From Sphingomonas aurea (GTDB lineage: Bacteria; Pseudomonadota; Alphaproteobacteria; Sphingomonadales; Sphingomonadaceae): a stretch of 64,000 bases of DNA. Location: contig NZ_JAUUDS010000004.1 of the NCBI RefSeq assembly GCF_030678875.1, positions 124,001 through 188,000 on the forward strand, in the 5' to 3' direction. Both the position numbers and the translations under genes were made by a program. The notes under the pieces are model-generated. The model saw only the letters and a list, made by a program, of their open reading frames with translations, made no database searches and was not told the origin of the DNA. This document shows, one piece after another, positions 43,949-53,674 of the stretch. Within the stretch, counting starts at the first letter, position 1; each line of letters opens with the position of its first letter.

Positions 43949-44601
43949 TGCTCGTCCTGTCCGGCGTCGCGGTGATCGCACTCGGTTTCCTGCTGCGGTT
44001 CAACCCGCTTCTCGTCATCGTCGTCGCGGCGCTGGTGACCGGCCTCGCCGCCGGTCTGGACCCGCTGACGGTGCTGGCGCGGTTCGGTCATGCCTTCAAC
44101 GAGACGCGCTACGTCACCGCGATCTACATGGTGCTGCCGGCGATCGGGCTGCTGGAGCGCGCCGGGTTGCAGGCGCGTGCCCGCTCGCTGGTCGCGGGCC
44201 TGCGCGGGTTGACGGTCGGGCGGCTGCTCGCCGGCTACCTGCTGTTCCGCCAGATCTCGGCGGCGCTCGGCCTGACCGCGGTCGCCGGCCACCCGCAGAC
44301 GGTCCGCCCGCTCGTCGCGCCGATGGCGGAAGCCGCTGCCGAGCGGCAGGGCGATGCCGATCCCGAACGGGTTCGCGCCCTGGCGGCGGCGACCGACAAT
44401 ATCGGCCTGTTCTTCGGCGAGGACATCTTCATCGCGATCGGATCGATCCTGCTGATGAAGGGGGTGCTAGACGGATATGGCATCCATATCGAGCCGTTCC
44501 ACCTGTCGGTGTGGGCGATTCCGACCGCGATGGCCGCCTTCCTGATCCATGGTTTTAGACTCTGGCTGCTCGACCGACGCTTGGGGCGGCGGCCGGCATG
44601 A
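43948..44601 (+). CDS. DUF969 membrane protein
   Basis: A 217-residue membrane protein with about 5-6 hydrophobic segments and the DUF969 signature around ETRYVTAIYMVLPAIGLLERAGLQ and FRQISAALGL. Its ATG overlaps the oxoprolinase stop (TGATG at 43946-43950). DUF969 always pairs with DUF979, which follows directly. The pair looks like a two-subunit inner-membrane transporter. Because the first gene of the operon is a 5-oxoprolinase, 5-oxoproline or a related cyclic amide is the natural candidate substrate. That is an inference. Confidence 0.85.
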   Translation: MLVLSGVAVIALGFLLRFNPLLVIVVAALVTGLAAGLDPLTVLARFGHAFNETRYVTAIYMVLPAIGLLERAGLQARARSLVAGLRGLTVGRLLAGYLLFRQISAALGLTAVAGHPQTVRPLVAPMAEAAAERQGDADPERVRALAAATDNIGLFFGEDIFIAIGSILLMKGVLDGYGIHIEPFHLSVWAIPTAMAAFLIHGFRLWLLDRRLGRRPA

Positions 44602-45497
44602 TCGGGATCGGCTTCGTCTATCTGGTCGCCGGCAGCTTCTTCGCCACCTGCGCGCTGCTCGGGCTCGTCGACCGGCGCTGGGCCAACGCGCTGTTCCACG
44701 CGCTCCTCGCCACCTCCTTCTTCGCGGGCGACCGCATCGGGGACCTCGGCAACGGCGTGCTGGTGCTCGCGCTGGTCGCCACCGCGACATCGGGGCGGAT
44801 GCGGCGCGGCGAGCCGGCCGATCAGGTGGCGCCGCGCGGCCCGCTCCTGATGCTGGCGCTGGTGATCCCCGCAACCGCGCTCGGCGGCACGCTGCTGTTC
44901 AAGCAGATGCCGGCGCTGATCGATCCGGCGCAGGCGACGCTGGTGGCGCTCGCCATCGGCGTGCTCCTCGCCCTCATCCTCTGCCATCTCTTCCTGCGTC
45001 CCGCTCCGCTCGACGGGATCAGGGCCGGGCGGCGGCTGCTCGACGAGATCGGCTGGGCGGCGGTGATGCCGCAGCTGCTCGCCAGCCTCGGCGCGGTCTT
45101 CGCGCTCGCCGGGGTCGGCGACGTGGTCGGCCGGCTGGTCGGCGGCGCGATCCCGGCGGGCAGTGTGTTCGGCGCGGTCGTCGCCTATGGCCTGGGCATG
45201 GCGCTGTTCACGATCGTGATGGGCAATGCCTTTGCCGCCTTTCCGGTGATGGCGGCGGCGGTCGGCATTCCCCTCCTCGTCCACCAGTTCGGCGGCGATC
45301 CGGCGCCGGTGGCGGCGATCGGGATGCTGGCGGGCTTTTGCGGCACGCTGCTGACCCCGATGGCGGCGAACTTCAACATCGTCCCCGCCGCCCTCTTGGA
45401 ACTGAAGGACCGCTACGGCGTGATCCGCGCGCAGGCGGCGACGGCGCTGCCGCTCCTCCTCTTCAATATCCTGCTCCTCTGGTGGGTGATCCGATGA
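44598..45497 (+). CDS. DUF979 membrane protein
   Basis: A 299-residue membrane protein with about 9-10 hydrophobic segments. Its DUF979 features are the N-terminal VYLVAGSFFATCALLGLVDRRW and the central GNAFAAFPVMAAAVGIPLLV with LTPMAANFNIVPAALLEL. It is coupled to DUF969 (ATGA at 44598-44601) and to DUF2891. It probably forms the second half of a transporter. The NFNIVPA stretch is conserved-looking and may be in the substrate path. Confidence 0.85.
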   Translation: MIGIGFVYLVAGSFFATCALLGLVDRRWANALFHALLATSFFAGDRIGDLGNGVLVLALVATATSGRMRRGEPADQVAPRGPLLMLALVIPATALGGTLLFKQMPALIDPAQATLVALAIGVLLALILCHLFLRPAPLDGIRAGRRLLDEIGWAAVMPQLLASLGAVFALAGVGDVVGRLVGGAIPAGSVFGAVVAYGLGMALFTIVMGNAFAAFPVMAAAVGIPLLVHQFGGDPAPVAAIGMLAGFCGTLLTPMAANFNIVPAALLELKDRYGVIRAQAATALPLLLFNILLLWWVIR

Positions 45498-46486
45498 CTG
45501 CGCTCGACCCGATCCTCGCCGCCCGCTTCGCGCGGATCACGCTGGACCATATCGGCCGCGAATATCCCTATAAGCTCGACCATATCCTGACCGGTCCTCA
45601 CGACGCCGTGACCCCGGCGACGCTCCACCCGATCTTCCACGGCAGCTTCGACTGGCACAGCTGCGTCCATGGCTGGTGGCAGCTGCTGACGCTGCGTCGG
45701 CTGTTCCCCGACCTGCCCGAGGCGGAGGCGATCGCCGCGCGCGCCGACGCGAGGCTAACCCCGGCACTGGTCGCGGGCGAACTTGCCTATCTCGACCGGC
45801 CGATGAGCGCGGGGTTCGAGCGGCCCTATGGCTGGGCCTGGCTGCTCGCGCTCCATGCCGAGGCCATGCGCCACGACGCACCATGGGGTGGGGCGCTGGC
45901 CCCGCTCGCCGCCGCCTTCGCCGCGCGCTTCGCGGCCCATCTGCCCCGGCTGACCTACCCGATCCGTGTCGGCACCCACTTCAACACCGCCTTCGCCCTG
46001 ATGCTGGCGCGCGACTGGGCGGTCGAGCACGACGCGGCGCTGGTCACGCTGATCGACGACCGCGCGCGCGACTGGTTCGGCCAGGATCGCGGCTGTCAGG
46101 CGTGGGAGCCGTCCGGCGACGACTTCCTCTCCCCCGCCCTGACCGAGGCGCTGCTGATGAGCCGCGTCCTGCCCGCGCCCGCGTTCGCGAAGTGGTTCGA
46201 CGCGTTCCTGCCCGACCTGTGCCGGGGCGAGCCCGCGACGCTGTTCACGCCCGCCCATGTCTCCGATCGCAGCGACGGCAAGATCGCGCATCTCGACGGC
46301 CTCAATCTCAGCCGCAGCTGGTGCTGGCGATCGATCGCCGCCGCGCTCGGGGCGGCTCATCCGGTCGCGACCGACATGGCGGAGGCCGGCCGGCGGCATC
46401 TCGCCGCCAGCCTGCCGCACCTCGACGACAATTACATGGGCAGCCACTGGCTCGCGACCTTCGCGCTGCTCGCGACGGTGGGCTGA
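45494..46486 (+). CDS. DUF2891 family protein
   Basis: A 330-residue soluble protein of the DUF2891 family. The family signature HGSFDWHSCVHGWWQLL lies near residues 50-67, with further conserved blocks RPYGWAWLL, GTHFNTAFAL and GSHWLATFA near the end. The fold resembles an alpha/alpha toroid, as in glycoside-processing enzymes. No signal peptide is seen. It is last in the oxoprolinase-DUF969-DUF979 operon (ATGA overlap). Its activity is unknown. Linkage to an oxoprolinase suggests processing of a pyroglutamate-containing or cyclic amide compound. Confidence 0.85.
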   Translation: MTALDPILAARFARITLDHIGREYPYKLDHILTGPHDAVTPATLHPIFHGSFDWHSCVHGWWQLLTLRRLFPDLPEAEAIAARADARLTPALVAGELAYLDRPMSAGFERPYGWAWLLALHAEAMRHDAPWGGALAPLAAAFAARFAAHLPRLTYPIRVGTHFNTAFALMLARDWAVEHDAALVTLIDDRARDWFGQDRGCQAWEPSGDDFLSPALTEALLMSRVLPAPAFAKWFDAFLPDLCRGEPATLFTPAHVSDRSDGKIAHLDGLNLSRSWCWRSIAAALGAAHPVATDMAEAGRRHLAASLPHLDDNYMGSHWLATFALLATVG

Positions 46487-46503
46487 TCGCGCCGATCCGG
46501 ACC

Positions 46504-47271
46504 CTACCCGATCGTCACGCCCACCACGCGCCAGCCGCCGGCCTCGCGCTCGAGCGTGACCGTCTCCACCGCATCCGCCTCGTTGGCGAAGCTGGTGCTA
46601 AACTTCACCACCTCGTACCCGTCCGGCGGAGCGGGCAGGTTTTCCTGGCTCAGCAGGGTGCGTGAGATCATCTTGCCCAGCGGCACGCGGACCTTCTCCG
46701 ACACCGTCACCCAGACCTGCGGCGTGTTCAGCTTGCGAAACGCCGCCCCGGTCATCCGGTAGCTCTCGTCCCAGCGCCCCTCGTCGACCAGGACCAGCCA
46801 GCGTCGCGCCGCGTCGGACACCTCCGACGGCGCCACCGCTGTCGCCGCGGGAGGCGGGGCGGCGACCTGAGGCAGGGCGGCAAGGGCGAACAGGCCGAGG
46901 ACGAGGGTCATGAGCACGACTCCGATGAAGATCGCCGGACGGTGTGCCGCCGGGCGTGCGCCGCCGACCGGCGCTGTGCCCTGATCCGCGTCCGGCCCGC
47001 CCGGGTCACCCCCGATCCTGTCGTCCGCAAGTAAATCGGGGTGCGCGGCGCCGCCCCGACCCTCCGCATCCAGCAGCAGGCGTGCCGCCTCGCGGCTGCT
47101 CGACACCGCCAGCTTCCGCCGCGCGTCGCGCAGCCGCTCGTTGATCGTGTGGACCGACAGGCCCAGGCTGCGCGCGGTCGATTTCGCGTCGTGCCCACGC
47201 ACGATCAGGCGAAGCGTCTGCTTCTCCTTCTCGGTCAGCGCCGACAGGCGTTCGTCCACCGGCGCGATCAT
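46504..47271 (-). CDS. LuxR-type HTH, membrane-anchored DUF4019 regulator
   Basis: A 255-residue protein with an unusual order. An N-terminal LuxR/GerE helix-turn-helix (8-65: LTEKEKQTLRLIVRGHDAKSTARSLGLSVHTINERLRDARRKL) precedes a Pro/Gly-rich linker, one membrane span (about 113-134) and an extracytoplasmic DUF4019 domain (150-255). It would be a one-component regulator sensing in the periplasm and binding DNA at the membrane, like ToxR or CadC but with a LuxR head. It is convergent with the DUF2891 gene (18 bp apart) and divergent from paoA, so it may control the molybdenum enzyme. Confidence 0.85.
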   Translation of the reverse strand: MIAPVDERLSALTEKEKQTLRLIVRGHDAKSTARSLGLSVHTINERLRDARRKLAVSSSREAARLLLDAEGRGGAAHPDLLADDRIGGDPGGPDADQGTAPVGGARPAAHRPAIFIGVVLMTLVLGLFALAALPQVAAPPPAATAVAPSEVSDAARRWLVLVDEGRWDESYRMTGAAFRKLNTPQVWVTVSEKVRVPLGKMISRTLLSQENLPAPPDGYEVVKFSTSFANEADAVETVTLEREAGGWRVVGVTIG

Positions 47272-47406
47272 CGTCCACGGCCTAGGCCGCGCCCATCGCC
47301 ACAGCTACCCTGAAAAATTTGTAGCCGCGCAAACGGGATGTGCGGCGGCACCATCCATGTTAGCCTTACGTTTCCGACGCGCGCAGTCGGCGGAACGGAG
47401 GCAAGC

Positions 47407-47909
<503 letters not shown>

Positions 47910-47913
<4 letters not shown>

Positions 47914-48899
47914 CCCCCTTCAGCTACGCCCGCGCCAACGACGCGGCAGAGGCGCTGCAACTGGGTCGGGACGCCGCCGCAGCCTATCTCGGCGGCGGCA
48001 CCAATCTGGTCGACCTGATGCGCGAGACGGTGGCGCGACCCGACCGGCTGGTCGACGTGTCCGGCCTGCCAGCCGACATCGCGGAAACCGAGGACGGCGG
48101 ACTGCTGATCGGCGCGGCGGTGCGCAACACCGCACTGGCCGAGCATCACGCGGTGCGGACGCGCTATCCGATGCTGTCGCGCGCCATCGTCGCGGGGGCA
48201 TCGGCGCAGATCCGCAACATGGCCACGGTCGGCGGCAATCTGCTGCAACGGACGCGCTGCACCTATTTCTACGATACCGACGGCTCCCGCTGCAACAAGC
48301 GGGCGCCCGGATCGGGATGCGACGCGCGCGAGGGGTTCAACCGCATCCACGCCATACTCGGCGCTTCCGACGCCTGTGTCGCGACGCATCCGTCGGACAT
48401 GTGCGTGGCGCTGGCGGCGCTCGACGCGACTGTGCATCTGGAGGGGAGCGGAGGCGCGCGGAGGCTGCCCTTCGCCGACCTGCACCGCTTGCCGGGCGAC
48501 CGGCCTGACATCGACACCGTGCTGGAGCCGGGCGAGCTTGTCACCGCGGTCGAGCTACCGCCGCTGCGCCTTGCCGCCACCTCGACCTATCGCAAGGTGC
48601 GCGACCGGGCGAGCTACGCCTTCGCGCTGATCTCGGTCGCCGCCGCGCTGGAGCTGGACGGCGACCGGATCGCCGACGTGCGGATCGCCTTCGGCGGCGT
48701 CGCGCACAAGCCGTGGCGCGCAACCCGCGCCGAGGAGGCGCTGCGCGGCGGTCCGGCGACCGATCAGGCGGTCCACGCGGCGGCGGCGCTTGAGTTCGCC
48801 GACGCCCGGCCGCTGCGCGACAATGCGTTCAAGCCGGCACTGGCGGCACGGACGCTCGCCGCCGTGCTCGGCGGCCTGGCTCGGGGAGAAGCGGCATGA
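47910..48899 (+). CDS. paoB: FAD subunit of molybdenum aldehyde oxidoreductase
   Basis: A 329-residue FAD-binding subunit. FAD motifs are YLGGGTNLVDLM (about 26-37) and TVGGNLLQRTRC. Four cysteines at 117, 128, 137 and 156 in the insert CTYFYDTDGSRCNKRAPGSGC match the extra [4Fe-4S] cluster of PaoB, which separates it from the usual xanthine dehydrogenase FAD subunit. The C-terminal CO-dehydrogenase flavoprotein domain begins with YRKVRDRASYAFALISVAAAL. Coupled by 4-bp overlaps on both sides. Confidence 0.93.
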
Positions 48900-51238
48900 G
48901 CATCGTCGACACCGCCAAACAGGCTGCGCAGGGCCTGATGCAGGGCGCGATGGAGAAGCTGGTGCCGCTCGCCCCCGACAGCTGGATACCGGGCGGCGTT
49001 CCCGACCCGCTGATCGCGCGCAAGCACGGGCTGATCGGCACGCCCGTCTCGCGCCTCGACGGTCCGCTGAAGGTAAAGGGCGGCGCGCGCTTCGCCGCGG
49101 AGTACCGGTTCGACGACATGGTCTATGCCGCGCTCGTCTACGCGACGATCCCGCGCGGCCGCATCGTCGCGATCGATCAGGCGGCGGCCGAGGCAGCCAC
49201 CGGCGTGGTCCTGGTGATGACCCACCGGAACGCGCCGCGGATGAACACGCCCGCCGTGTTCGGATCATCGCCGACCGCGGTCGGACCCGCCGACCTGCCG
49301 ATCCTGCAGGACGACCGTATCCATTGGAATGGCCAGCCGATCGCCTGCGTACTGGCAGAGACGCAGGAACAGGCGGACCACGCCGCCTCGCTCATCGCCG
49401 TCACCTATGATGAGGAGCCGTCGACCACCTCGCTGGCCGGGGCCAAGGCCAACGGGATGGAACAGGGCCTGTTCATGGGCCAGCCGCTGCTCAACGAGAT
49501 CGGCGACGCAGAGGCGGCGCTGGCATCGGCGCCGCACCGCATCGACCATGTCTACCGAACGCCGCGCCACAACCACAACCCGATCGAGCCGCACGCCGCG
49601 ACGCTCGCCTGGGTCGATGGCGGGCTGGTGATCCACGACGCCAGCCAGATGGTGACCCAGCAGGCGCAGACCATCGGCGAGGTATTCGACCTGACGCCCG
49701 ATCAGGTTCGCCTCACCTCGCCCTATGTCGGCGGCGGTTTCGGGAGCAAGGGGCTGTGGGATCATCAGGTCATCGGCGCCGCCGCGGCGCAGCTGGCCGG
49801 ACGGCCGGTCCGCATCACGCTGTCGCGGGAGGGCGTGTACCGCGTCGTCGGCGGACGGACGCTGACCGAACAGCGCGTCGGGATCGGCGCGACGGCGGAT
49901 GGCCGGTTCCAGGCGCTCATCCACTCCGGTCTGTCGGTCATGACCCCGCACAATTCCATGCCCGAGCCGTTCATCCTCGGCACCCGTGCCGCCTATGCCG
50001 CACCGAATATCGCGCTGAAGGTGGAGATCGCGCGCATGAACATGCTCGCCAACACCTTCATGCGCGCGCCGGGCGAGGCGGTCGGCACCTTCGCGCTCGA
50101 ATGCGCGGTCGACGAGCTGGCGGTGCAGATCGGCATCGACCCGGTCGACCTGCGCATCCTGAACGAGCCGGACAAGGATCCGACCTCCGGCCTGCCCTTC
50201 TCGTCGCGGCACATCGTCGAGGCGTGGCGCCGGGGGGCGGAGCGGTTCGGCTGGTCCGACCGCCCCGCCACCCCCGCCTCGCGCCGCGACGGCGAGTGGC
50301 TGGTCGGCATGGGCTGCGCCACCGGCACCTATCCCTATTACCGGATGCCCGGCGCGGAGGCACGGATCACCCTGACGCGCGACGGCGACGCTGTGCGCGC
50401 GACCGTGGAGGTCGCGGCGGCAGAGATGGGCATGGGCACCTCGACCACCACGGCGATCGTCGCGGCGGAGCGGCTGGGCCTGCCGCTCGACCGGGTCGAG
50501 GTGGCTTACGGCGACTCGGCCATCCCAGGCGCGATCATGGCCGGCGGGTCGCAGCAGACGGCGGCGATCGGTGCGGCGGTGATCGCCGCGCACAACGCGC
50601 TCGTCGCCGAGTTGCTGAAGCTCGCCGGCAATGATTCGGGATTGGCCGGCCTGTCCCCGGACGATGTCGGCAGCGTCGATGGCGGCCTGTCCAAGCGCGA
50701 CGATCCGGTGCGGCGCGAGAGCTATGCCTCAATCCTGTCCCGCGCCCGGCGCGACAGCGTGACGGTGACGGCGGCGGGTTCGCCGCCGCTCGAGCTGATG
50801 CACTGGTCGATGCACTCGCACAGCGCGCTGTTCTGCGAGGTGCGGGTCAACGCGGTGACCGGCGAGACGCGGGTCACCCGCATGCTGGGTTCGTTCGATT
50901 GCGGGCGCATCCTCAATCCCCGCACCGCGACCAGCCAGTTCCGCGGCGGCATCATCATGGGGCTGGGCATGGCGCTGATGGAGGAAACCCAGTTCGACGA
51001 GCGGAGTGGCCGGATCATGAACCCCAGCCTCGCCGAATATCACCTGCCGGTGCACATGGACGTGCCGGAGATCGACGTGATCTGGACCGACATCGCCGAT
51101 CCCCACACCCCGATGGGCGCGCACGGCATCGGCGAGATCGGCATCACCGGCGTCGCCGCCGCGGTCGCCAATGCCATCTACAATGCCACCGGCAAGCGGG
51201 TGCGGAACCTGCCGATCACGCTCGACAGGCTGCTTTAG
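48896..51238 (+). CDS. paoC: Molybdopterin subunit of molybdenum aldehyde oxidoreductase
   Basis: A 780-residue molybdenum cofactor-binding subunit of the xanthine oxidase family, PaoC-type (E. coli PaoC 732). Cofactor and substrate regions are YVGGGFGSKG, FMRAPGEAVGTFALE, GGSQQTAAIGAAV and GAHGIGEIGITG, the last holding the catalytic Glu. The N-terminal ~35 residues (MSIVDTAKQAAQGLMQGAM) are an extension. It oxidises aldehydes to acids. No PaoD-type cofactor-insertion chaperone follows; the next gene is convergent. The final stop is TAG at 51236-51238, 9 bp from the gcd stop. Confidence 0.92.
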   Translation: MSIVDTAKQAAQGLMQGAMEKLVPLAPDSWIPGGVPDPLIARKHGLIGTPVSRLDGPLKVKGGARFAAEYRFDDMVYAALVYATIPRGRIVAIDQAAAEAATGVVLVMTHRNAPRMNTPAVFGSSPTAVGPADLPILQDDRIHWNGQPIACVLAETQEQADHAASLIAVTYDEEPSTTSLAGAKANGMEQGLFMGQPLLNEIGDAEAALASAPHRIDHVYRTPRHNHNPIEPHAATLAWVDGGLVIHDASQMVTQQAQTIGEVFDLTPDQVRLTSPYVGGGFGSKGLWDHQVIGAAAAQLAGRPVRITLSREGVYRVVGGRTLTEQRVGIGATADGRFQALIHSGLSVMTPHNSMPEPFILGTRAAYAAPNIALKVEIARMNMLANTFMRAPGEAVGTFALECAVDELAVQIGIDPVDLRILNEPDKDPTSGLPFSSRHIVEAWRRGAERFGWSDRPATPASRRDGEWLVGMGCATGTYPYYRMPGAEARITLTRDGDAVRATVEVAAAEMGMGTSTTTAIVAAERLGLPLDRVEVAYGDSAIPGAIMAGGSQQTAAIGAAVIAAHNALVAELLKLAGNDSGLAGLSPDDVGSVDGGLSKRDDPVRRESYASILSRARRDSVTVTAAGSPPLELMHWSMHSHSALFCEVRVNAVTGETRVTRMLGSFDCGRILNPRTATSQFRGGIIMGLGMALMEETQFDERSGRIMNPSLAEYHLPVHMDVPEIDVIWTDIADPHTPMGAHGIGEIGITGVAAAVANAIYNATGKRVRNLPITLDRLL

Positions 51239-51247
51239 CCGGCTGCC

Positions 51248-53611
51248 TCAGGTCCGCGGCAGCGCGAAGGCCATGGTATAGTCGCCGTAGCGGGTGCCGA
51301 GCGCGCCGTGCCCGCCGGCGGTGATGACCACATATTGCCGCCCGTCACGCCCGCGATAGGTCATCGGCGTCGCCTGCGCGCCTGCCGGCAACCGGGCCTT
51401 CCACACCACCTCGCCGGTGTTCAGGTCATAGGCGCGCAGATACTGGTCGGTCGTCGCGCCGATAAAGGCAAGGCCACCGGCGGTGATGATCGACCCGCCA
51501 AGGTTGGGCACGCCGGTCTTGATCGGCACGCCCAGATGCGATCCGAACAGACCGGTGTCGCGCGCGGTGCCCAGCACCTTCTTCCACGCGATCTTGCGCG
51601 TGTTCAGGTCGATCGCGGTCAGGTGGCCCCAGGGCGGCGCCACGCAGGGCGCGCCGAAGATGCCCACCCACGCCTTCACCACCGCGACGTACGGCGTATT
51701 GTACTGGGTCTGGAGCTGCGCCTGCATGGCGTTCTCGCCACCCTGCTTCTGCTTCATCAGGGAGGCGACGCGCGGATCGTCGCGGCGCATCAGCCACAGC
51801 TTGAACGGCATTTCCATCGTGTTGACGGTCATGATCCCGCGCACCGGATCGACCGCCGCGCCGCCCCAGTCGGTGACACCGTCGAAGGCGGGATGGCCGA
51901 TGATCGGCTTCAGGCCCATCGGCTGGTAGATGCCGGTCCCCTGCGCACGACGAATGTCGATACGGCAGAACAGCTGATCGATCGGCGTCGCGCCCCAGGT
52001 CGCGACCTCGGTCGGGGCGGGCGGCGTGAAGCTGGGCATCCCGGTCGAGAAGGGCTGGGTCGGCGACACGCGCACGCCCGGCGTCGCGCCATCGGTCCGC
52101 ACCGGTCGCTCGGTGATCGCGGCGATCGGCTGGCCGGTCAGGCGGTTCAGGAAGAACACCTGCCCCATCTTGGTGGTCTGGATCAGCGCCGGGACAACCT
52201 GTCCGTTCGGCGCGCGATAGTCGAACAGCGACGGCCCGATCGGCAGATCCATGTCCCACATGTCGCGGTGTACCAGCTGACGGGTCCAGCGCAGCTTGCC
52301 GGTCGCCACGTCGAGCGCGACGATCGAGCTGCCGAACCGGTCGTCGAACGGCCGGCGATACCCGATCCAGTAATCGGGAGAGGCGTTGCCGGTGCCCAGA
52401 TAGACGATGCCGTTCGCCGCGTCCGCGGTGATCGCGCCCCAGACGTTCGGCGTGCCGCGTGTATAGACCTGCCCCGCCGGCAGTGGGGCGATCGCGTCCT
52501 GCGACCGGCCCACGTCCCATGCCCAGACTGGCGCACCGGACACGGGGTCATAGGCGCGGACCACCCCGCTTGGGATGTCGCGGTTGACGTTGTCGGTGAT
52601 CCGCTCGCCGATGATGAGGCGACCGTTCACGACCACCGGCGGGGTCGTGCCGATCTGGTCGGACGGCTTCGACGTGCCCATGTTCGCGCGCAGGTCGATC
52701 GCGCCGCCGTTCGCGAAGCTGGGGCACGGCCGTCCGGTATCGGCGTCGAGCGCGACGAGGCGCGCGTTGAAGGTCGGCGCGAAGATGCGGTGCGGGCACG
52801 GCGTGCCGGCCGGTGCCTCGAAATAGGTGACGCCGCGGCAGACCAGATAGTTGTTGCCCTGGATCTTCGCGTCCTCGTGCCAGCTCCACTTGGTCTTGCC
52901 GGTGGTGGCGTCGATCGCCTGGACGAAGGAATGCGGCGTGCAGGTGTAGAGCGTGTCGCCGATATGGATCGGCGTCGCCTCGGAATGATATTCGCGCTTA
53001 TGCTCGGTCGCCTCCGCCGGCATGGGCAGGTCGCCGGTGCGTTGCGTCCAGGCGAGTTGCAGGCGGCCGACATTCTGCGGCGTTATGTCGGCAAGCGTCG
53101 AGTAGCGGCGCCCGGACAGCGTGCCACCATAGTCGCGCCAGTCGCCGTCCGCCTCGCCCGTCGGCGCTGCCGGCAGCTGCACCGCTGGCGCGTCCTGCGC
53201 GACGACTCCTTGCCCGTGCAGCGTCAGCCCGGCGACGCACAGCACCGCTAGTCCCGCAGCGACGGCGGGCATCGCATGCCCGCGCGACCGCCACGAACGC
53301 CCGCGCAGGCCGGTCAGCAGCACCAGCACCAGCAGCACGGTGGGCGCAACCAGCCGCGGTACCAGCTGGAGCCCGTCCAGCCCCACCTCCCACACCGCCC
53401 AGATCAGCGTGCCGATCCACAGCGCGACGAACAGCCATCGCCCGAGCGGACTTTCGCGCCCGATCAGCGCTCCGCTGGCCACCATCGCGACGCCGACGAT
53501 AAGATAATAGGGCGAACCACCCAGCGAGACGAGCACCCCGCCTGCGACCACGAAGAAACCACCCAGAATGGTGATGACCCAGGCCAGGACGATGGTGAGC
53601 AGCCGTGCCAT
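51248..53611 (-). CDS. gcd: Membrane-bound PQQ-dependent glucose/quinate-type dehydrogenase
   Basis: A 787-residue quinoprotein. The first ~130 residues hold five membrane spans. A periplasmic eight-bladed propeller follows (DWRDYGGTLSGRRYSTL..., then HRDMWDMDLPIGPSL near residue 450, TGNASPDYWIG, and C-terminal GGHGALGTRYGDYTMAFALP). This is the layout of Gcd, which oxidises glucose to gluconate and reduces ubiquinone. Quinate/shikimate dehydrogenases share the form, so glucose is likely but not certain. No PQQ biosynthesis gene is in the window. The start is ATG 53611; upstream ATG 53644 would add 11 charged residues. Confidence 0.88.
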   Translation of the reverse strand: MARLLTIVLAWVITILGGFFVVAGGVLVSLGGSPYYLIVGVAMVASGALIGRESPLGRWLFVALWIGTLIWAVWEVGLDGLQLVPRLVAPTVLLVLVLLTGLRGRSWRSRGHAMPAVAAGLAVLCVAGLTLHGQGVVAQDAPAVQLPAAPTGEADGDWRDYGGTLSGRRYSTLADITPQNVGRLQLAWTQRTGDLPMPAEATEHKREYHSEATPIHIGDTLYTCTPHSFVQAIDATTGKTKWSWHEDAKIQGNNYLVCRGVTYFEAPAGTPCPHRIFAPTFNARLVALDADTGRPCPSFANGGAIDLRANMGTSKPSDQIGTTPPVVVNGRLIIGERITDNVNRDIPSGVVRAYDPVSGAPVWAWDVGRSQDAIAPLPAGQVYTRGTPNVWGAITADAANGIVYLGTGNASPDYWIGYRRPFDDRFGSSIVALDVATGKLRWTRQLVHRDMWDMDLPIGPSLFDYRAPNGQVVPALIQTTKMGQVFFLNRLTGQPIAAITERPVRTDGATPGVRVSPTQPFSTGMPSFTPPAPTEVATWGATPIDQLFCRIDIRRAQGTGIYQPMGLKPIIGHPAFDGVTDWGGAAVDPVRGIMTVNTMEMPFKLWLMRRDDPRVASLMKQKQGGENAMQAQLQTQYNTPYVAVVKAWVGIFGAPCVAPPWGHLTAIDLNTRKIAWKKVLGTARDTGLFGSHLGVPIKTGVPNLGGSIITAGGLAFIGATTDQYLRAYDLNTGEVVWKARLPAGAQATPMTYRGRDGRQYVVITAGGHGALGTRYGDYTMAFALPRT

Positions 53612-53674
53612 ATCCGCGCATTCCCTGTGATCTACGGGCCACAACGCAGCCGGCGGCGAAAAGTCCCCGTGCGG

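Follow-up and report, generated by a model that had tools for sequence, protein, structure and literature searches.

The window analysed here, a 64,000-nt stretch of the Sphingomonas aurea genome, contains a gene (46504–47271, minus strand) for a 255-residue protein that joins a LuxR-type helix-turn-helix (HTH), a predicted membrane helix and a DUF4019 domain, and that diverges from a set of paoABC-like genes; this raises the question of what such a regulator would control, and through which DNA site. The open reading frame starts with ATG and has no internal stop codons. The GerE domain (PF00196; residues 11–65, 47077–47241, minus strand) scored 33.6 bits against a Pfam gathering cut-off of 23.5, and DUF4019 (PF13211; residues 154–251) scored 91.4 bits against 26.5; both were matched at E ≤ 0.001 in all 24 members of alignment A1 (window protein included), which has 36 invariant columns and members 38–71% identical to the window protein. 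The most hydrophobic 19-residue stretch has a mean Kyte-Doolittle value of 2.74 and begins at residue 114 (counted from a start placed four codons downstream). The AlphaFold2 model, based on 24 aligned sequences (mean pLDDT 82.8, pTM 0.46), contains the HTH helices and a single predicted membrane helix at residues 112–131 (46879–46938, minus strand; pLDDT blocks of 64 and 74). The linker ahead of this helix is modelled as disordered, with residues 74–77 and 81–109 at pLDDT below 50, and it includes an invariant P78 and a nearly invariant G87. Pfam, hydropathy and model bear out the layout given in a preliminary description of this DNA, namely an N-terminal LuxR HTH, a single predicted span and a C-terminal DUF4019 domain.

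In structural comparison the modelled HTH matched SdiA, LasR, VraR and LiaR (Z about 11), and by sequence it matches NarL and GerE. Among the Pfam hits to E 1, an autoinducer-binding domain is absent and the HTH is N-terminal, so the protein is not a classical quorum-sensing LuxR; a receiver domain is also absent, so it is not a NarL/FixJ response regulator; and there is no OmpR-type winged-helix, the head being GerE, so it is not a member of the ToxR family. ToxR, CadC and TcpP have an N-terminal cytoplasmic DNA-binding head, a single span and a C-terminal periplasmic domain, and their head is an OmpR-type winged-helix. The window regulator has the same order of head, span and outer domain, but with a GerE-type head and a predicted NTF2-like domain, in agreement with the earlier proposal, which likened the layout to that of ToxR and set the DNA-binding fold apart.

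A predicted DNA-binding domain and a membrane region predicted by hydropathy and model thus occur in one chain, as in the transmembrane transcription regulators (TTRs). These form an established, very common class of regulator; in the portion of a survey available to us, single-pass forms are the commonest, and about 57% lack any further recognisable domain (PMC10269533). The words LuxR and GerE are absent from the main text of that survey, and neither a DUF4019 fusion nor a conserved own promoter was met in the portion available (PMC10269533). Membrane-tethered LuxR-type HTHs are also represented by DadR, CadR and HcdR of Eggerthella lenta, which the accessible text reports as activators with 10–12 transmembrane helices (PMC9734109). 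In these the HTH is C-terminal, after the 10–12 helices, whereas the window regulator has an N-terminal HTH, one helix and an outer domain; furthermore, the three studied E. lenta genes lie near their targets as described in that text, whereas the window regulator has no recurrent neighbour (PMC9734109). A literature search, with most subscription journals outside its scope, found no description of a LuxR-span-DUF4019 protein. The novelty is this combination; tethered transcription regulators are already known as a class.

The DUF4019 part (residues 150–255, 46507–46824, minus strand) is modelled as four helices and four strands, at pLDDT 96–98 in every block from residue 151 on except one. 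Its best structural match was the DUF3887 structure 4hyz (Z 13.5, rmsd 2.1, 103 aligned residues), with further matches to the N-terminal domain of PBP2a (4bl3; Z 12.0, rmsd 2.5, 101 aligned) and to TraM (4ec6; Z 11.6, rmsd 2.1, 94 aligned); these Z scores are a re-comparison of Foldseek's own matches, the best of which had an E of 2.7e-4. With helices packed on a curved sheet and matches to solved members, DUF4019 is predicted to adopt an NTF2-like fold; sharing a fold is in itself no evidence of function. The preliminary description had held that signalling by DUF4019 is not understood, and this is in keeping with the literature, in the accessible part of which the term was met only in the context of Salmonella severity.

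DUF4019 would sit on the periplasmic side of the membrane and the HTH on the cytoplasmic side. The main support for this placement comes from HTH-less relatives outside the family, for which 21 hits in 14 genomes were considered, with a partial one containing a stop (L203) left out: in the 20 of the 21 that were read, no LuxR-type HTH is visible by eye, and the DUF4019 domain comes after a signal-like hydrophobic stretch. Such proteins share DUF4019 with the regulator and carry the signal-like stretch instead of its HTH and span. One genome outside the family (G567) has five DUF4019 hits on a single contig (C5, 689982–742910; L187, L197, L200, L202 and L203), comprising four full-length short secreted-looking proteins and the partial one with a stop.

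Judged from genome and protein searches, the predicted membrane-anchored LuxR-DUF4019 regulator is widespread in sphingomonads. DUF4019 was matched at E ≤ 0.001 in 76 of 199 sampled genomes of the family (73 above the cut-off), representing 52 of its 96 sampled genera, and there is one match in the window's own genome. The HTH-span-DUF4019 layout, judged from translations, was found in 29 of the 30 best DUF4019 loci of the family, the window's own included, to which this count is confined; shorter, weaker family hits were read in part. The remaining locus (L030) encodes a DUF4019 protein without an HTH, as does L195 from another genome of the window's genus. The best 80 of 398 relatives at E ≤ 1e-3 were kept, each aligned across nearly the whole protein; they are named as Sphingomonas, Sphingobium, Novosphingobium and kin, except for unclassified metagenome bins and a few records with odd names (Microvirga, Bacillus). 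DUF4019 was present in 8 of 289 genomes of a class sample (five outside the family) and in 17 of 299 genomes of a phylum sample (nine outside the family).

The divergent genes encode PaoABC-like molybdenum hydroxylase proteins (47407–47913, 47910–48899 and 48896–51238, plus strand). The ATG of the first is at 47407, leaving an intergenic gap of 135 bp, so the statement that the regulator faces the paoABC promoter is right as to position. The label itself is loose: PaoA is the best NCBIfam model for the first gene (258.8 bits) and PaoC for the third (600.9 bits), but these scores lie below the respective cut-offs of 322 and 1180, and the best model for the second gene is not a Pao model. Because of the sub-cut-off scores, and because the PaoA match starts at model position 54 (the first 53 positions missing), the window proteins may differ from the exported PaoABC of E. 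coli. Convergent with these genes is one for a PQQ-dependent dehydrogenase (51251–53644), and adjoining DUF979 and DUF2891 genes (44598–46486) lie on the strand opposite to the regulator gene, ending just past its stop codon.

The shared gap would suit local control of the paoABC-like genes by the regulator, since the conserved element described below lies 84–105 bp ahead of the paoA start codon. Against this, full paoABC was found beside none of the 80 relatives by tblastn with paoA, paoB and paoC (E ≤ 1e-10) in flanks of up to 10 kb, shortened by contig ends at some loci (545 bases upstream in L065, 1024 in L053); the queries at this threshold also comprised the DUF2891, DUF979 and PQQ dehydrogenase genes. 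Short paoC-like matches occurred in just two relatives (L083, 35%; L099, 33%), and the locus corresponding to G155, of the window's own genus (L040), is without pao genes. In relatives that lack pao genes, the element is kept and is oriented toward the regulator gene. Local control of this kind is thus highly improbable, although some effect on paoA by way of the shared 135-bp gap is conceivable, and the link to paoABC claimed earlier is not supported; paoABC was rejected as the regulator's target because none of the 80 relatives has the full set beside it, and is dropped as the assumed one. The paoABC-like genes look like a chance neighbour, probably outside the system.

No other neighbour takes their place. 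Among ORFs of at least 110 aa within 6 kb, no cluster was present at more than 8 of the 80 loci, once the regulator gene and three clusters (67, 40 and 15 loci) made up mostly of overlapping ORFs had been set aside, and the regulator gene is thus an orphan. In 14 further regions, mostly of relatives without the element, differing genes lie in front of the regulator gene. In a distant clade (L165, L167, L168, L169, L171 and L172), the element is absent and the gene is directly behind varied housekeeping-like genes, labelled by eye (guanylate kinase, DNA polymerase III).

This neighbourhood also bears on the possibility that a signal triggers proteolysis that frees the HTH from the membrane, with linker and helix acting as a cleavage device rather than as a rigid transmitter. 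Residues 81–109 of the linker, at pLDDT below 50, together with G87 and P78 would fit such a device, and ToxR undergoes controlled proteolysis, according to the accessible part of the source (PMC6242745). On the other hand, no gene for a protease or partner recurs near the regulator gene, and we regard release by proteolysis as rather unlikely.

Upstream alignments, a profile and whole-genome scans point instead to the regulator's own promoter, in which a conserved element, TACAAATTTTTCAGGGTAGCTG (family form TACRAAWTTTTTNGGGGTRGCYG; 47302–47323, minus strand), constitutes a candidate operator. It is followed by a −10-like CCTAGG (47281–47286, minus strand), with a predicted leaderless transcription start near 47271–47272. 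The family promoter, TACRAAWTTTTTNGGGGTRGC and then CNTAGG, was present in 88 of 105 upstream regions (82 distinct); 109 genes had been tried (the window's, those of 80 named loci, and L002–L029), of which four were dropped because the HTH pattern missed them. The 17 regions without the element by pattern belong to 11 members of the distant clade and to L023, L025, L057, L105, L106 and L109; L023 and L025 have a variant of it.

Columns −12 to +6 of the element carry 0.97–2.64 bits, column −1 excepted (0.13), and the flanks 0.01–0.24. Part of this conservation arises by construction, because the search pattern requires two A/T, GGGT and a stretch rich in A/T, and thereby forces or biases columns −9 to −2 and 0 to 6; the unforced TAC at −12 to −10 carries 1.32, 1.88 and 1.56 bits. 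Downstream, a TA at +27/+28, likewise unforced by the pattern, reaches 1.8 bits (T at +27 and A at +28 each in 67 of 82 promoters), the exceptions being mostly displaced by one base. The ATG lies 12–15 nt past the T of this TA in 72 of the 82, so that the mRNA is probably leaderless, and Shine-Dalgarno-like words occur in 7 of the 82 upstream regions. The element would lie about 42–44 bp ahead of the predicted transcription start, at the place of the missing −35 box. A consensus promoter scan of 46450–47450 returned no match on either strand, which is uninformative either way. The element is mostly asymmetric: inverted-repeat arms reach a length of at least 6 in 5 of 82 sites, and the outer TAC and GTR show no covariation in those 82; a perfect dyad operator was ruled out for most sites on these two counts. 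In Stakelama sediminis (L109, 9681–10010), the promoter is split: the element is shifted upstream by about 270 bp, CCTAGG is present both by the displaced element and by the gene, and inverted repeats flank the intervening stretch, which resembles an insertion of a small mobile element into the CTAG.

The specificity of the element was assessed with a sequence-only profile for which 58 of 67 candidate sites were used; the nine left out include several with shifted spacing. In the window's own genome the profile gave one hit (E 7.5e-10), the next being at E 0.137. Across the 199 family genomes, several of which had also supplied sites to the profile, there were 29 hits at E ≤ 1e-3, and 28 of these lie ahead of a DUF4019 gene, on the same strand and 438–520 nt before the DUF4019 domain, which in G015 scores below the family cut-off. 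The exceptional hit (G010, C29) is so close to a contig end (30 nt) that the gene downstream is not visible. At E between 0.001 and 0.0273, 7 of 17 hits are at DUF4019 genes; conversely, 49 of 86 DUF4019 hits have no counterpart among the element hits used; these come from the distant clade, from HTH-less proteins and from weak cases. The profile hit 79 of the 80 named loci at E 0.1 or better, once per locus and on the gene's strand, the weakest being L088, L098 and L080 (0.0015–0.0019) and L095, L079, L105 and L103 (0.016–0.081). Fifty of these loci had built the profile, and 29 of the other 30 were hit (L106 was missed), which is no independent test because most of the 30 resemble sites in the model; loci outside the profile are mostly near-duplicates of sites within it. 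As a pattern with at most one mismatch, the element gave 28 hits in the 199 genomes, 23 of them before DUF4019 genes, and the reversed-pattern control gave none.

From this phylogenetic footprint and the modelled domain layout, we posit that the protein may be an orphan transmembrane one-component transcription regulator that controls its own promoter, with paoABC as a chance neighbour, a reading that we hold at even strength for and against. A periplasmic ligand, partner or stress would alter the DUF4019 domain, probably its dimerisation, and this in turn would alter DNA binding by the membrane-tethered HTH, for which the main predicted site is the conserved element ahead of the regulator's own gene. 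LuxR-type activators classically touch RNA polymerase from sites near −42. Because the −35 box is missing and the element has an inferred position of −42 to −44, the regulator would most likely activate, rather than repress, its own leaderless transcript. Any additional targets would be reached via weaker or different sites. For the unstudied DUF4019 family, the analysis supplies a fold prediction, the probable side of the cell membrane on which the domain lies and a 22-bp candidate DNA site; if the HTH binds that site, a reporter fusion would provide a direct read-out with which to screen for DUF4019 signals.

That the regulator itself reads the element is a proposition to which we give a weight of about one half. 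It is favoured by the position of the element, by its privacy and by the likeness of GGGGTA, reversed TACCCC, to the NarL heptamer TACYYMT as given in the part of the source consulted (PMC4886647). Counting against it are the largely asymmetric make-up of the element and the distant clade, in which the recognition helix is nearly the same and the element is absent; a private site at a single gene is also expected of any gene-specific promoter. It is accordingly possible, with a smaller share of our confidence, that another conserved factor, either a regulator or an alternative sigma factor, reads the element, and that the LuxR-DUF4019 protein is an output with an unrelated regulon of its own. 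The asymmetry of the element, with little dyad, and the element-less distant clade would both accord with such a factor; but a factor of general reach would be expected to act at several targets, whereas strong copies occur essentially only before the regulator gene, and the NarL-like heptamer likewise speaks for a LuxR-type reader, as far as that source was available (PMC4886647).

If the regulator does read the element, a stricter form of self-regulation is conceivable, though we consider it improbable: a self-contained circuit in which, throughout many sphingomonad genera, each genome has a single strong site for the regulator, namely the leaderless promoter of the regulator gene. The output of such a circuit would be the regulator's own membrane level rather than a regulon, and the protein might serve as a bistable periplasmic sensor, or its periplasmic NTF2-like domain as an effector. 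A look-alike in the window's own genome makes this self-only circuit somewhat less likely. It is the genome's next best match and only two-mismatch copy, lying outside the window (G000:C7:185611–185662; L112 1467–1518, minus strand) and 34 nt upstream of the lptF start codon, lptF being the gene of an LPS export permease (258.7 bits against a cut-off of 230); its distances from element to TA to ATG equal those of the regulator promoter, and it scores 6.1 bits with the element profile. The element core with at most two mismatches was found in the own lptF upstream region and in none of the 29 others examined, these 30 being the best-scoring of 97 genomes with a match, own included. Those without it include carriers of the regulator element (G027, G057, G001, G043 and G076), so that the lptF copy is peculiar to this genome, whether as a look-alike or as a target, and is not conserved; it may be taken as a lead in this strain rather than as a regulon member. 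A wider regulon through the same site was rejected: the loose pattern gave 19 hits in the own genome against 17 for the reversed control, with a single hit at fewer than two mismatches, and the lptF copy is unconserved.

Five copies with at most one mismatch are not before a DUF4019 gene (G010, G166, G174, G171 and G016). The copy in G166 lies within an ORF, that in G171 lies where a methyltransferase-like ORF begins, and that in G016 has no matching ORF; these three and the copy in G174 are taken as chance. The one-mismatch copy in G174 (L224, 1501–1606) is 88 nt before the start of a gene labelled by eye as GcrA-like.
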